Source: Aurantiacibacter sp. D1-12 (lineage in GTDB: Bacteria; Pseudomonadota; Alphaproteobacteria; Sphingomonadales; Sphingomonadaceae). From it: a DNA stretch of 64,000 bases. Below, piece by piece: positions 60,200 through 64,000 of this stretch. The position numbers and the translations under genes are program-made. The DNA is taken from assembly GCF_028858515.1 (NCBI RefSeq), contig NZ_JAPJZJ010000005.1, positions 1 to 64,000 on the forward strand, written 5' to 3'. The notes under the pieces were generated by a model. That model saw only the letters and a program-made list of their open reading frames with translations, did no database searches and had not been told where the DNA came from. The stretch's first letter is position 1. Each line of letters opens with the position of its first letter.

Positions 60200-61024
60200 A
60201 TGTCCTCTCCCCACAAACCCAAGACCACCCTCCCCGCCTTTACCCCCGTCCCGCGGAAGACAGACCGTTCGAACGGCTGGAAGCCCGAAGTCCAGCTCGC
60301 CTTTATCGAGGCGCTGGCAGAGACCGGCAGCGTCACCGCCGCCGCGCGCCGCGTGAACCGCGCAGCCGTTGGCGCCTACCTCCTGCGCCGCCATCCGGAG
60401 GCCAAGAGCTTCCGCAAGGCGTGGGAGGCCGCGCTCGATATCGGCATGCAGCGGGTGGAGGATGTCGCGATGGACCGCGCGCTCAACGGCGTGGAAGTGC
60501 CCGTGTACGCCTATGGCAAGATCATCGGCACGCGCACTGTCTACAACGATCGCCTGCTCATGTTCATGCTCCGCAACCGCGCCCCCAAACGCTTTGCCGC
60601 CGATGGAGCCAAGGGCATGAACGCGCTCGACAAGCACCGCCTCGCGCAGATGAAAAAGGAATGGCGCAAGGAATGGGACCGCGAACGCCTCGCCGCGAAG
60701 AAGAAGGATAGCGGAGAAACTCTTGACCGCCTCCACGCCAAGATCGACAAAATGCGCGAGCGCCGCGACGCGCTGATGAGTCCCGAAACCCGCCGCCTGC
60801 GCGAAGCCTACGAAGCGAGCTTCGAACGCGACAAGGCCGAACCCTACGCGTGGATGGACGAGGCGGACGCGTCACCCGGCGCGGATGCGCAGGTCGACAA
60901 CGACATGGGCGTGCTCGGCCCGAGCGAGGAGATGAAAAAGCATCTGCCGGGCTGGCAGGAGGCGGAGCCGGAGGGTGAGGAGGATGGACCGAGGGTGCGG
61001 CGGGTGAAGGATGATGGTTGGTGA
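60200..61024 (+). CDS. HTH DNA-binding protein, terminase-small-subunit-like
   Basis: 274 aa. WKPEVQLAFIEALAETGSVTAAARRVNRAAVGAYLLRRHPEAKSF near residues 25-75 is a helix-turn-helix of the kind found at the start of phage terminase small subunits and in many sphingomonad-specific proteins; it is followed by LNGVEVPVYAYGKIIGTRTVYNDRLLMFMLRNRAPKRF. A charged coiled-coil tail (KEWRKEWDRERLAAKKKDSGET) ends the protein. No terminase large subunit or other phage gene is nearby, so a resident regulator is more likely. Start ATG 60200 is chosen; upstream in-frame codons fall in the repeat element. Confidence 0.75.
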   Translation: MSSPHKPKTTLPAFTPVPRKTDRSNGWKPEVQLAFIEALAETGSVTAAARRVNRAAVGAYLLRRHPEAKSFRKAWEAALDIGMQRVEDVAMDRALNGVEVPVYAYGKIIGTRTVYNDRLLMFMLRNRAPKRFAADGAKGMNALDKHRLAQMKKEWRKEWDRERLAAKKKDSGETLDRLHAKIDKMRERRDALMSPETRRLREAYEASFERDKAEPYAWMDEADASPGADAQVDNDMGVLGPSEEMKKHLPGWQEAEPEGEEDGPRVRRVKDDGW

Positions 61025-61045: not shown

Positions 61046-62353
61046 TCAGGCGCTTAGACCTCGTTTCAATGTCGAGGCTGCGCACTCAACTGGGCAATCT
61101 TCCCTCGGCGGAACGCCAGCGGTGTAGTCACCGGCAACTTGCAGTGGTGATAAGAAACGCTGCCTCGATTGCAGCGTGGACTCCACACCGGCTGCATCGC
61201 GCAAGAAATCAACCGCTGTCATGAGTCCAGCAAGAAACGAAACAAATGAAATAGTCGGAATTGGTCCGTCTTGTTCTTCATCGTGGGGATGCAAGCACCC
61301 TGCGCAACCTGACGTAGAAAAATGGACGGAGGACATTGCAGCGAAATGGGAGGTGGCGCCAACGCTCATCCATGAGGGCGCCGCCCGCGCGATCAACCAA
61401 CGTATCGGAATGTCATCGACGCCGACAATCACCGATTGTGCAATGTCCTCGAGGTCTTGCTCCTGAAAGTGCCGAGCAACTGGCTCAATCTTCAGCCCAT
61501 TCTCGAATGCCTTGAAGAGTTCCACCTTGGACAGGCCAAGAAAGCCGCACGTCAACAGCATGTTTCGATTTCGGTTTGTTTCGTCGGATACGTCTCGATC
61601 AAATACTCGCGCAACTCCCGAGACCTGTGGCAATCTCAAGAGCGCATACAAGGTCGCATTGGTTACAGCACCTGCGCTAATCACATCGAAGCGACCGAGT
61701 TGGCTGATCTTCGGCGTGTCCTCATGAGCGAGCCTAAGGACCGAGGACTGACTATCCTCAAAAAGTTCACGAAAATGGCCTGCATTTCTGGTTGCTAACG
61801 GAAGCATTCTGCGACCTGCGACCTTGATAGCTTCCGCGGCGACAAGCGTGGCAGCAATCATCCCACCAATAGGCCAATCAGATTTCTCCGCCTTGGCGAC
61901 ATAAGGATAGTCGCCGAGTTCCCCTGCCCAATCCGTCCATCCTACTGAAACGACTCTTTTTGCTTTTGCAAAGCGAGCCAAATCCCGACTGCCGAAGACA
62001 AAGGCAACATCCGGTTCAAACAACGGGCAACCAATCGCGATTTCGAGGCCGTCAACAATCTGCCCTCCTTCGGCTTGAAGAGCTTCGTAGAGAGTGCTTC
62101 CATTCATTGGAGGCTGGTCTCCAATCAGTGGCGCATCGGGCAGATCCAAAAAAACCCGATGACCGGATCTCGCCATCAAGAACGCTGATGTGGTAATCGC
62201 CACCTGCCCGGACAAAGTCGAAACGGTCGCCTCGTCCGCTACCAACAGAAAACTGGCGCCGGTTAAAGCACGAAGGACAGAATCCGCATCTTTGATCCCT
62301 AGATCATCTTGGAAAAGCTGAACTGTCCGAGCGAATTGTTGAGCGCTAACCAT
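61046..62353 (-). CDS. ThiF/E1-like adenylating enzyme
   Basis: 435 aa, almost twice a ThiF or MoeB. The C-terminal half is a recognisable E1 adenylation domain: VISAGAVTNATLYALLRL (residues 225-239, the glycine loop), FDRDVSDETNRNRNMLL (252-267, Asp and the two Arg/Asn positions), VGVDDIPIRWL near 313, then CAGC (350-353) and CPVEC (420-424) as a four-cysteine zinc site. The region that carries the catalytic Cys in thioester-forming E1s reads PIPTISFVSFLAG and has none. The N-terminal half (FLLVADEATVSTLSGQ, RVFLDLPDAP) looks like a degenerate Rossmann domain, so the chain may be an internal pseudo-dimer. It overlaps the JAB gene by 8 bp. Confidence 0.88.
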   Translation of the reverse strand: MVSAQQFARTVQLFQDDLGIKDADSVLRALTGASFLLVADEATVSTLSGQVAITTSAFLMARSGHRVFLDLPDAPLIGDQPPMNGSTLYEALQAEGGQIVDGLEIAIGCPLFEPDVAFVFGSRDLARFAKAKRVVSVGWTDWAGELGDYPYVAKAEKSDWPIGGMIAATLVAAEAIKVAGRRMLPLATRNAGHFRELFEDSQSSVLRLAHEDTPKISQLGRFDVISAGAVTNATLYALLRLPQVSGVARVFDRDVSDETNRNRNMLLTCGFLGLSKVELFKAFENGLKIEPVARHFQEQDLEDIAQSVIVGVDDIPIRWLIARAAPSWMSVGATSHFAAMSSVHFSTSGCAGCLHPHDEEQDGPIPTISFVSFLAGLMTAVDFLRDAAGVESTLQSRQRFLSPLQVAGDYTAGVPPREDCPVECAASTLKRGLSA

Positions 62354-62792
62354 CGATCTGTATCCTCGCCTCTATATCAACCTGTTGCCAACTGCCATCC
62401 GACTGAATCTCGGTCAGGTAAGCTCTATCAAAACCGACAGGCCCCATTGCGAAATCCGGGATAACCAAGCTCAAGAAACCGGCCTCGGGCAGCAATGGGT
62501 AGGCGTCGTCTGTAGCGGAGTGAAAAGCTTCTGATGGGTGCGTATGCACTTGTACTCGGACGCCCATTCCCCTGTCGGCTAGATCATTCCAAAATTCATT
62601 GATCCACCCACTATCGATGCTGAGCGCATACGCGGACGACAAATGGCGGGGATGCACAACTTCAAGCAATTTTAGCGGGTCATTCCAGCTGCTCACCCAG
62701 TACAATTGGCACTCGCGGCGGTTGTCGCCGCATGATCGTAGAACATGGAATGTCTCTTCGATCATGCGGCGCGGAAGCGAAAACAAAGGCAT
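62346..62792 (-). CDS. JAB/JAMM (Mov34) metalloprotease
   Basis: 148 aa, a single JAB domain. RRECQLYWVSSW supplies the Glu of the JAMM motif near residue 27, and RVQVHTHPSEAFHSATDDAYP near residue 80 gives HxH, the Ser and the Asp (spacing between the second His and the Ser is six, not the usual seven). Such proteins remove or process ubiquitin-like modifiers. It lies between the ubiquitin-like gene (1-bp gap) and the E1-like gene (8-bp overlap), so the three are made together. Confidence 0.88.
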   Translation of the reverse strand: MPLFSLPRRMIEETFHVLRSCGDNRRECQLYWVSSWNDPLKLLEVVHPRHLSSAYALSIDSGWINEFWNDLADRGMGVRVQVHTHPSEAFHSATDDAYPLLPEAGFLSLVIPDFAMGPVGFDRAYLTEIQSDGSWQQVDIEARIQIDG

Positions 62793-62793
62793 C

Positions 62794-63093
62794 TCAGCCG
62801 GCCTTCACAGCGGACGGGCGGAGGAGAAGCGTGTCTTTTTTCTTGACCTTCGATTGCTTGACGGTTTCGGCGTCTTTCAGTTCGGAGCCCTCTTCATCGA
62901 ACAGCGACAGGATGTGCTGGTTGGACGTGATGCCAAACGTACTGATCGCCTTCTGCAGCAGAGCGCTGATCAGCTCTGCATTCGACGTTTCGACCTGCTT
63001 CGTGAGGCCATTGTACTTCACACCGATTTCGAACGGCTTGTTCTGGCCGACATCGTCGGGCCGCTTGCTCGTCATTCCATTCTCGCTCGCCAT
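62794..63093 (-). CDS. Ubiquitin-like beta-grasp protein
   Basis: 99 aa. After a disordered N terminus the fold reads as ubiquitin-like: FEIGVKYNGLTKQVETS (beta hairpin), NAELISALLQKAISTFG (helix), ILSLFDEEGSELKD (strand and turn) and KVKKKDTLLLRPSAVKAG (last strand). The chain ends in Ala-Gly, not Gly-Gly, and has no extension to be trimmed. ATG 63093 has GGAG six bases upstream; the TTG at 63105 is the less likely alternative. First gene of the operon with the JAB and E1-like genes. Resemblance judged by eye; no search run. Confidence 0.8.
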   Translation of the reverse strand: MASENGMTSKRPDDVGQNKPFEIGVKYNGLTKQVETSNAELISALLQKAISTFGITSNQHILSLFDEEGSELKDAETVKQSKVKKKDTLLLRPSAVKAG

Positions 63094-63124: not shown

Positions 63125-63142
63125 GATTGCTAGGAAGCAATC
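63125..63142. promoter_or_regulatory. Candidate operator 1 in the divergent promoter
   Basis: GATTGCT, four bases, AGCAATC: perfect 7-base arms. In GATTGC-N6-GCAATC form it shares spacing and half-site with the second site at 63170. It lies 32 bp upstream of the ubiquitin-like gene and 78 bp upstream of the XRE regulator start, the expected place for the regulator to control both sides. Confidence 0.65.
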
Positions 63143-63167: not shown

Positions 63168-63215
63168 ATGATTGCAAGATCGCAATTTATTTCATTTGTG
63201 GAATTTCGTCGGTGA
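63168..63215 (+). CDS. Possible 15-codon leader ORF
   Basis: ATG 63168 follows AGGAG at ideal distance (seven bases) and encodes MIARSQFISFVEFRR before TGA 63213-63215, five bases ahead of the XRE start at 63220. The spacing and strong ribosome site suggest that translation of this ORF could feed the regulator by coupling. It overlaps operator 2. It could also be chance: the ORF is out of frame with the regulator. Confidence 0.4.
   Translation: MIARSQFISFVEFRR
63170..63187. promoter_or_regulatory. Candidate operator 2 in the divergent promoter
   Basis: GATTGC, six bases, GCAATT: the same half-site and the same 18-bp geometry as the site at 63125, with one mismatch at the edge. The two sites are 45 bp apart, centre to centre, and both lie between the divergent operons. 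A regulator dimer bound here would block initiation of the XRE transcript. Confidence 0.55.
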
Positions 63216-63219
63216 CCGC

Positions 63220-63567
63220 ATGAGTCCCGGCTTTAACCAAGAGGCCTTTTACGCGGCACTCGATACCGAGCGCCTATCGAGACGAAAAACTTGGAAGCAG
63301 GTTGCGGAAGAAAGCACAGTCCCAGCTTCCTCGCTTTCAAGAATGAAAAAGGGAAAAAAGCCAGATGTAGACAGTCTAGCAAAATTGATCAGCTGGTCGA
63401 ATTTAAAAACAGAATATTTCATCGATCAGTCCGGAGAGGAAAATGCGTCTTCAATTGCAAGAATTACAGCTCTCTTAAGAGCCGATCCGAAATTGGATCA
63501 AACCGCCAAAGATACTTTGGAGAAGGTAATTCTTTCTACTTATAACGTTTTGCTGCCAAAGGGATAA
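63220..63567 (+). CDS. XRE-type helix-turn-helix regulator
   Basis: 115 aa. FYAALDTERLSRRKTWKQVAEESTVPASSLSRMKKGKKPDVDSLAK is a Cro/CI-type HTH (residues about 7-52), followed by LISWSNLKTEYFIDQS and a C-terminal helical tail (LLRADPKLDQTAKDTLEK). Start ATG 63220 is likely; a TTG at 63172 in the same frame lies within operator 2. Three bases separate its stop from the ImmA-like gene, the usual pairing of a repressor with a peptidase that relieves it. It probably controls the divergent ubiquitin-like operon. Confidence 0.82.
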   Translation: MSPGFNQEAFYAALDTERLSRRKTWKQVAEESTVPASSLSRMKKGKKPDVDSLAKLISWSNLKTEYFIDQSGEENASSIARITALLRADPKLDQTAKDTLEKVILSTYNVLLPKG

Positions 63568-63570
63568 GAC

Positions 63571-64000
63571 GTGAAGCACGGTTTCAAGGCTCAAGCCAAT
63601 CGAATTGCCCTTGAAATGAGAAGAGAGTTCGGGCTCGCGCCCGAGGCTCCCATGTGCCCTTTCATTCTTTGCGAACATTTTGAAATCCGAGTGCTGCCTC
63701 TGTCGCAATTCAGCGACGAGGCAGCCTATTTCCTTTCGGAAGGATCAAGCGCATTCTCGGCCGTCACCGTCCAACGCGGAATTAACCGCGCGATTGTTCA
63801 TAACGATAGTCATTCTGTAGTTCGGCAACATAGCAACCTGATGCATGAACTCGCTCATGCCTTTCTGGGGCATCCACCTTGCGAGGCTTTCGATGAGGAT
63901 GGAGAGAGGGTATATAGTTCGGACATTGAGCAAGAAGCCAACTTTCTTGCTGGGTGTCTCAAAGTCACAAACGAAGCCGCGTGGCACATTGTAAAGAATG
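63571..64000 (+). CDS. ImmA/IrrE family metallopeptidase, partial at the right edge
   Basis: The first 143 codons are present; the gene runs off the window. Starting with GTG (VKHGFKAQANRIALEMRREFG), it shows HELAHAFLGH (HExxH zinc site, near residue 92) and DIEQEANFLAGCLKV (third ligand Glu) of ImmA/IrrE proteins (PF06114). IrrE/DdrO-type enzymes cleave the cognate XRE repressor upon damage; ImmA does so for ICEBs1. That is the likely relation to the XRE gene three bases upstream. The signal is unknown. Confidence 0.85.
   Translation, partial: MKHGFKAQANRIALEMRREFGLAPEAPMCPFILCEHFEIRVLPLSQFSDEAAYFLSEGSSAFSAVTVQRGINRAIVHNDSHSVVRQHSNLMHELAHAFLGHPPCEAFDEDGERVYSSDIEQEANFLAGCLKVTNEAAWHIVKN

Follow-up and report, generated by a model that had tools for sequence, protein, structure and literature searches.

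Can a ubiquitin-like protein (Ubl) be attached to its targets when neither an E2 enzyme nor the catalytic cysteine of an E1 is at hand? The question is raised by an operon of Aurantiacibacter sp. D1-12, located near the end of the 64,000-nucleotide stretch analysed here (contig NZ_JAPJZJ010000005.1, positions 1 to 64,000; hereafter the window). An initial annotation of the window had placed three coupled ubiquitin-system genes on its minus strand, and the open reading frames (ORFs) lie as described, with a 1-bp gap between the Ubl gene and the JAMM protease (JAB) gene and an 8-bp overlap between the latter and the E1 gene:

62794–63093, minus strand: Ubl gene, 99 amino acids, Pfam DUF2604; the tail ...AVKAG is encoded at about 62797–62811, before the stop codon
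62346–62792, minus strand: JAMM protease gene, BilC-like, 148 amino acids, with PADLOC and solved BilC matches
61046–62353, minus strand: E1-like gene, BilD-like, 435 amino acids; adenylation residues present, catalytic-Cys stretch absent

Together with genes for an XRE repressor and an M78 protease, these genes form a five-gene accessory cassette. On the evidence of profile searches and predicted folds, the three proteins are distant relatives of those of the Bil anti-phage system. The nearest known kind appears to be the operons of the NGR234 (“6c”) type, from which the joint absence of an E2 and of the E1 cysteine stretch sets the cassette apart.

The membership of the trio in the ubiquitin system is supported by Pfam, PADLOC, solved-structure and AlphaFold-model matches. 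The window Ubl matches Pfam DUF2604 above the cut-off (E 4e-6) and the NPL4-type Ubl barely above it (2e-4), with ubiquitin itself below. The beta-grasp fold on which the initial annotation had staked its claim for 62794–63093 is predicted by AlphaFold from about residue 21 (pLDDT 83, pTM 0.69; confidence is high past the first 20 residues), and a PDB fold search returned ISG15 and 8tyz_B, the Ubl of a bacterial E1-E2-Ubl structure, as top matches. The PADLOC BilA model did not match this Ubl, and matched that of one relative, L002, weakly (E 4e-4). The window JAB is below the Pfam cut-off for Prok-JAB and matches PADLOC BilC (1.5e-15) and the solved BilC (8tyx, a Ubl-DUB structure; 2e-14). 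The E1 is below the Pfam cut-off for ThiF and matches PADLOC BilD (1.6e-14) and the solved BilD (8tyz), at 1e-4 as a single sequence and 5e-16 as a four-row profile. Its AlphaFold model (pLDDT 86, pTM 0.90) has 8tyz_A, the bacterial E1 BilD, as best PDB fold match (E 5.7e-22; TM 0.77 by query length), ranked above eukaryotic E1s, ThiF and MccB.

What the E1 lacks becomes apparent when its profile is aligned to BilD: the alignment stops at BilD residue 345 and picks up at 437. In BilD, Cys417 takes BilA from its adenylate and belongs to a Cys domain roughly 80 residues long (PMC11354881). This cysteine would fall within the gap; the window E1 is without the catalytic-Cys stretch. Two segments of the gene are relevant here:

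61253–61267, minus strand: E1 residues 363–367 (GPIPT), the site where E2-associated E1s carry an insertion with the catalytic Cys
61082–61306, minus strand: E1 stretch C350–C424, with the zinc-type cysteines C350, C353, C420 and C424 (putative zinc binding)

Eighteen E1s were aligned: at the position of the catalytic Cys, 11/11 sequences whose loci include an E2 have Cys, and 7/7 whose loci lack one have a gap. All 11 aligned E2-less E1s read xxIPT at the site, with no Cys. Three more E1s with an E2 alongside (L025, L065 and L066) have the catalytic Cys when read by eye, which brings the tally to absence in 11/11 E2-less E1s and presence in 14/14 encoded beside an E2. In E1s of the NGR234 kind the insertion spans about 87 residues; in the other Bil E1s it is shorter. 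The adenylation residues of ThiF/MoeB type are largely kept: D254, N260, R263, K276 and D313 in 7/7 E2-less rows, and D252 with replacement by Glu in two. Of the zinc-type cysteines, C350, C353 and C424 are Cys in 11/11 E2-less E1s and C420 in 10/11 (L036 lacks it); the two 6c E1s have three of these columns. The pattern is of the zinc type, and the four cysteines may form a zinc site.

The partner proteins retain their key residues. E27, H83, H85, S92 and D95 of the JAMM protease are invariant in 14/14 aligned proteases, and E27 aligns with the residue mutated in 8tyx (E33A; counted by hand). Nine of ten Ubls finish on glycine (two ...KAG, seven ...GG), and the tenth, that of L036, has GG followed by three residues. 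We considered the glycine tail as a distinguishing mark and dropped it, as four of five Ubls from E2-bearing loci also end in Gly and the fifth in GA.

The initial annotation had seen no E2 in the operon. None is seen in the cassette, and three queries detected none above cut-off in the whole window genome. The BilB model found nothing at E≤10, a limit so lax that 5 of 14 control genomes give a match with it; the NGR234-type E2, searched as a two-row profile, gave zero matches in a search that had no positive control; and Prok-E2_B gave one match (E 0.27), short of the cut-off. By tblastn, the complete BilD loci from the family search all had BilB (8/8), and it was found at none of the E2-less loci searched (13 locus files representing 11 distinct systems, of which L012 and L016 lie at contig edges with their upstream side mostly unseen in the E2 searches). 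The BilB query is blind to the NGR234-type E2, which was therefore searched for separately. In NGR234 and Rhizobium BT04 this E2 gene is flanked by those for Ubl and JAB, and its Cys-Glu-His-His spacing is that of the published account (PMC11354881). Across the 11 E2-less loci, one weak match only was obtained (E 0.045, within the UvrD gene of L005), and the E2 motif gave one stray match, on the minus strand of L011. An E2 hidden in the N-terminal half of the E1 was also considered and was rejected because the model matches the two-lobed E1 8tyz and no Cys column in that half is common to more than 3 of 11 sequences. Among E2-bearing loci, the BilB-like E2 gene of L024 and L025 (within 379–1029) reads VYRPWDRH by eye where L035 reads LYLPCDRL, with the presumed catalytic Cys replaced by Trp; the adjacent E1 retains its Cys.

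How widespread is this arrangement? In a Sphingomonadales genome (L009), within the group to which the initial annotation had pointed, the trio recurs with an XRE-M78 pair alongside. The E1 search matched 4/397 genomes of the family sample (the window genome included; one match weak and interrupted), and PADLOC BilD matched 11/397, three of the E2-less kind (window included) and eight with BilB. The class sample gave 2/385 (the window genome and one fragment), the order sample 1/396 (the window genome alone) and the phylum sample 3/398, namely the window genome and two operons with the NGR234-type E2 and the catalytic Cys. A scan of genome_contigs gave 9 loci out of 57 candidates, two of them already found in the family search. 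On plasmids, the E1 search found at least one locus, on a conjugative plasmid of Rhizobium beringeri (L005); further plasmid searches listed 9 and 42 records, some of which were examined, and the plasmid loci are a lower bound. E1 scans of viral_contigs found zero relatives, the JAB profile found one locus there (L036), and a JAB search of the “phages” collection gave zero matches.

Ten distinct loci, the window included, have all three genes. The trio and its order are the same in 10/10, so the arrangement is not due to chance, in line with the earlier view of one coupled operon. The Ubl-JAB gap ranges from -10 to +5 bp (the JAB start of L036 is uncertain) and the JAB-E1 overlap from 1 to 8 bp; the relatives' proteins are 29–53% identical to those of the window. 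Left out were L004 (E 2e-4, internal stop), L031 (a second, partial BilD match within one genome), L017 (E1 split over frames) and L019, a 117-residue fragment from the C-terminal part of an E1 in another family of the same class, perhaps a remnant. L016 enters the E1 counts only, with 655 bases left on the contig upstream of it and no JAB seen. Both L016, open at the contig edge, and L017 are actinobacterial relatives of the E1.

In a MoeB-rooted tree the eleven E2-less E1s form a single clade (support 99/96), which groups with the 6c E1s (90/82); the program warns of a long root branch. A single joint loss of E2 and Cys stretch is the simplest history, and both may instead have been absent ancestrally.

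The cassette occurs in two versions. A short-Ubl version is found in the window, in a Sphingomonadales metagenome-assembled genome (L009) and in the viral-collection contig (L036), with divergent XRE and M78 genes in 3/3. The second, seen at seven loci, has a Ubl of about 240–280 residues, in which Multi_ubiq matched twice in the one scanned, and an upstream UvrD-PDDEXK protein with an M78 domain in 5/5 scanned (L005, L010, L013, L014 and L015). M78 is thus found in both versions, as part of the XRE-M78 pair with the short Ubl and as a domain of the UvrD protein with the long one. The L009 contig carries a DUF5906/VapE-type primase-helicase (scanned) and an integrase-like ORF (by eye), and in L036 the cassette adjoins ORFs resembling capsid and head-tail genes (by eye).

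Several described systems resemble the cassette in part. Bil and NGR234 “6c” operons (Iyer et al., 2006; PMC1779556) share with it the order of related Ubl, JAB and E1 genes, and annotation assigns DUF2604 to the NGR234 and BT04 operons as well. The window has a BilA-like Ubl, by its fold match to 8tyz_B, and the JAMM protease BilC. However, Bil and 6c operons have an E2 between Ubl and JAB where the window has none at the locus or in the genome, and BilD carries the catalytic Cys for which the BilD-like window E1 has no stretch. The PADLOC Bil models are also weak on the window compared with true Bil loci. We rejected filing the cassette as Bil, since two defining parts (E2 and E1 catalytic Cys) are missing; it may still work somewhat like Bil. 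Type 6e or polyubiquitin operons (Iyer et al., 2006) have multi-Ubl proteins, as in the second version, and no active E2. Their JAB is mostly fused to the E1, many of them also have an inactive E2-like domain, and exceptions are allowed (PMC1779556), whereas the window JAB is separate from the E1 and no E2-like gene was found. In MoeB/ThiF-MoaD/ThiS and Urm1-Uba4, the E1 adenylates without needing a thioester and Urm1 conjugates E2-free (PMC12954526); the window differs in its two-lobed BilD-like E1, its dedicated JAMM protease and the absence of a rhodanese from the cassette.

A cofactor-pathway neighbourhood had been named in advance as counting against a ubiquitin-type role. None lies beside the cassette: thiamin, molybdopterin, Qbs and CysO-Mec genes are not among the five genes of its chromosomal slot, and a ThiF-family gene that resembles moeB lies elsewhere in the genome. 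With no linked pathway and this separate gene, a cofactor cassette was not our first choice. The archaeal SAMP/UbaA/JAMM1 set is similar and also without E2; its E1 retains the catalytic Cys. Type II systems of cyclic oligonucleotide-based anti-phage signalling (CBASS; Cap2/Cap3) are defined by a cyclase and an E2-E1 fusion, neither of which is among the five slot genes. The gene set is therefore unlike both Bil and type II CBASS, as had been noted at the outset. Ye 2026 reportedly describes unusual intermediates in Bub pathways. No description of the E2-less clade was found in the literature searched, the coverage of which did not extend to Chambers 2024, Hor 2024, Ye 2026, Gong 2025 and Lau 2022.

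Conservation of the cassette extends to its XRE and M78 genes, and two operator-like dyads lie between them and the operon:

63220–63567, plus strand: XRE-type repressor gene, divergent from the operon; ATG start chosen, ORF open from 63172
63571–64000, plus strand: M78 (ImmA/IrrE-type) protease gene, running past the window to contig position 64122; M78 above the Pfam cut-off
63126–63141, no strand assigned: operator-like dyad ATTGC-N6-GCAAT, copy 1
63171–63186, no strand assigned: operator-like dyad ATTGC-N6-GCAAT, second copy, at a distance of 45 bp from the first

The XRE protein matches HTH_3 below the Pfam cut-off (4.5e-4), PADLOC RmrA at 2.7e-5 and capH at 1.8e-3; the M78 protein matches PADLOC RmrA at 4.7e-7 and capP at 1.4e-5. 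The pair is arranged like CapH+CapP, in which an HTH repressor and a peptidase lie beside an immune operon, and its similarity to them at the profile level is weak. CapH+CapP consists of a repressor cleaved by a protease that is activated by single-stranded DNA, and CapW or CapH+CapP is found at 219/544 Bub operons (PMC13373217). Both dyads fall within the 126 bp separating XRE from Ubl, and in the corresponding gap of L009, TTGC-N6-GCAA and a copy with one mismatch are separated by 48 bp. By base composition, 0.0016 copies of TTGC-N6-GCAA are expected per 126 bp, a figure for a motif picked after being seen; across the window, 5 were observed against 0.83 expected, a background above the composition estimate.

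The cassette occupies the interval from an ORF ending at 61024 to lepA (lepA stop at contig 64249). We found lepA in 14/15 genomes of the genus, the window genome included, and compared the region in 10 of the remaining 13. Both flanks of the slot are kept in 7/10 congeners, and in six of these seven its content matches PADLOC models of recognised or candidate defence genes:

L053: defence reverse transcriptase and nitrilase
L057: PDC-M71A/B
L058: type II restriction-modification pair
L059: methylase and specificity subunit
L060: PDC-M63A and HNH protein
L062: SIR2-HerA
L061, the seventh: dGTPase, which matches a defence model and may be housekeeping

The lepA 3' side is a variable slot that holds differing defence or candidate-defence genes in the genus, bounded on its other side by an HTH ORF in L053 and L057–L062; in the three congeners that lack the left flank, lepA is accompanied by other genes. 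Next to the cassette, at contig 64129–64171, lies a 44-base copy (86%) of the 3' end of lepA, and partial copies are present in L053 and L058. These copies could reflect insertion at the 3' end of the gene. The accessory island suspected at the start is supported, and the defence role suggested with it is supported indirectly.

We read the locus as an inducible, mobile and probably anti-phage cassette whose Ubl is adenylated and then attached without E1 or E2 thioesters, a reading to which we give slightly less than an even chance. It probably serves to defend the cell against phages or other mobile DNA. In the resting state, the XRE protein would bind the two dyads and hold the operon low. 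Infection or DNA damage would activate the M78 protease, which would cleave the repressor as for CapH+CapP. The E1 would adenylate the C-terminal glycine of the Ubl, for which no trimming is needed. Since the adenylation residues are present and the cysteine relay is absent, the E1 should go no further than the Ubl adenylate, which is where MoeB and ThiF stop (PMC12954526). The adenylate would then pass to an outside nucleophile, since no E1 or E2 cysteine is there to accept it. Most likely, a host persulfide would react first to give a thiocarboxylate, followed by Urm1-like tagging of proteins without an E2; alternatively, the adenylate could be transferred to a protein amine directly. The JAMM protease would detach the tag and restrain the system. 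Precedents exist for individual steps. The Urm1 thiocarboxylate arises even if the Uba4 thioester cannot, and Urm1 conjugation proceeds without E2 or E3 (PMC12954526). The peptide adenylate of the E1-like MccB can be captured by added thiols (PMC13255007), and an E1-like enzyme that hands the Ubl to lysines itself, with a JAB cutting it off, has been proposed (Iyer et al., 2006; PMC1779556).

The complete scheme of thioester-free Ubl conjugation in phage defence, comprising an adenylation-only E1, direct or thiocarboxylate tagging, JAMM removal and a repressor-protease switch, is put forward tentatively and with more doubt than confidence. Outside the sulfur carriers, the accepted picture of Ubl conjugation is a thioester relay from E1 to E2. 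A clade lacking both cysteine modules, yet with adenylation residues, a glycine tail and a JAMM protease, makes E2-free tagging in bacteria testable and would bridge sulfur carriers and ubiquitin systems. If true, the scheme would widen the range of Ubl-type defence and provide a small three-protein system for biochemistry.

A number of points weigh against this reading. In 7/7 E2-less E1 rows, Ser (S226) takes the place of the first glycine in the nucleotide loop, which makes adenylation itself uncertain. No rhodanese or desulfurase is encoded in the cassette, so the sulfur step would need host enzymes. RmrA models outscore capH and capP for the XRE and M78 proteins, and the CapH/CapP reading thus depends on gene arrangement more than on profiles. 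The dyad is absent from L036. No phage protection has been demonstrated for Bub operons with such regulators (PMC13373217). In L054, which has no left flank, the methyltransferase beside lepA also matches PADLOC mad2 (1.5e-10), so that PADLOC matches at the slot are not fully specific, and the slot comparison was made without a random-slot control. Induction, zinc, chemistry, targets and defence are all things that we infer, as is every step past gene content and homology.

One different outcome of the same chemistry would be sulfur transfer, with the Ubl thiocarboxylate giving its sulfur to a small molecule or RNA and no protein being tagged, for which thioquinolobactin-type Ubl-JAB-E1 sets provide a precedent. 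An adenylation-only E1 with zinc-type cysteines as in MoeB/ThiF, and the lack of an E2, would suit such a role. We nevertheless regard it as unlikely: no biosynthetic gene is found in the cassette of the window or of L009, the E1, JAB and Ubl are closest to Bil proteins rather than to MoeB/ThiF, and the regulator pair, mobile carriage and defence slot suit conflict genes better. Ordinary thioester conjugation, in which one of the four cysteines accepts the Ubl or an unrecognised E2 elsewhere serves the E1, is improbable to the same degree. The invariance of C350, C353 and C424 speaks for it, and without C420 the zinc site of L036 may be incomplete; yet nothing rose above cut-off in the genome with three E2 queries, and the four cysteines are at the place where 6c E1s hold a similar set beside a separate catalytic Cys.

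The target may also be other than phages. CapH+CapP-type control responds to DNA damage and Bub operons under it have no demonstrated phage effect (PMC13373217), and Urm1 conjugation is linked to oxidative stress (PMC12954526), all of which would suit a general DNA-damage or oxidative-stress response. Set against this are the viral contig, the contig with primase and integrase-like ORF, the conjugative plasmid and the defence slot, and we think such a response quite unlikely. That the cassette is a decayed Bil remnant, no longer working, would explain the loss of two central parts, but is very improbable given that at ten loci the three genes are all open and lie close together, and that adenylation and JAMM residues are conserved at 29–53% identity to the window proteins. 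An anti-phage cassette with thioester-free tagging is the reading that we prefer.

Two observations concern the surroundings of the second, long-Ubl version. On the Rhizobium beringeri plasmid (L005, 2766–13269), a second Ubl set consisting of a multiubiquitin protein, a ThiF protein and a DUF6527 protein is found a few kb from the E2-less one. In Aminobacter (L035, 1–5871), a UvrD-helicase gene precedes an E2-bearing Bil operon, as it does the E2-less operons of the second version.

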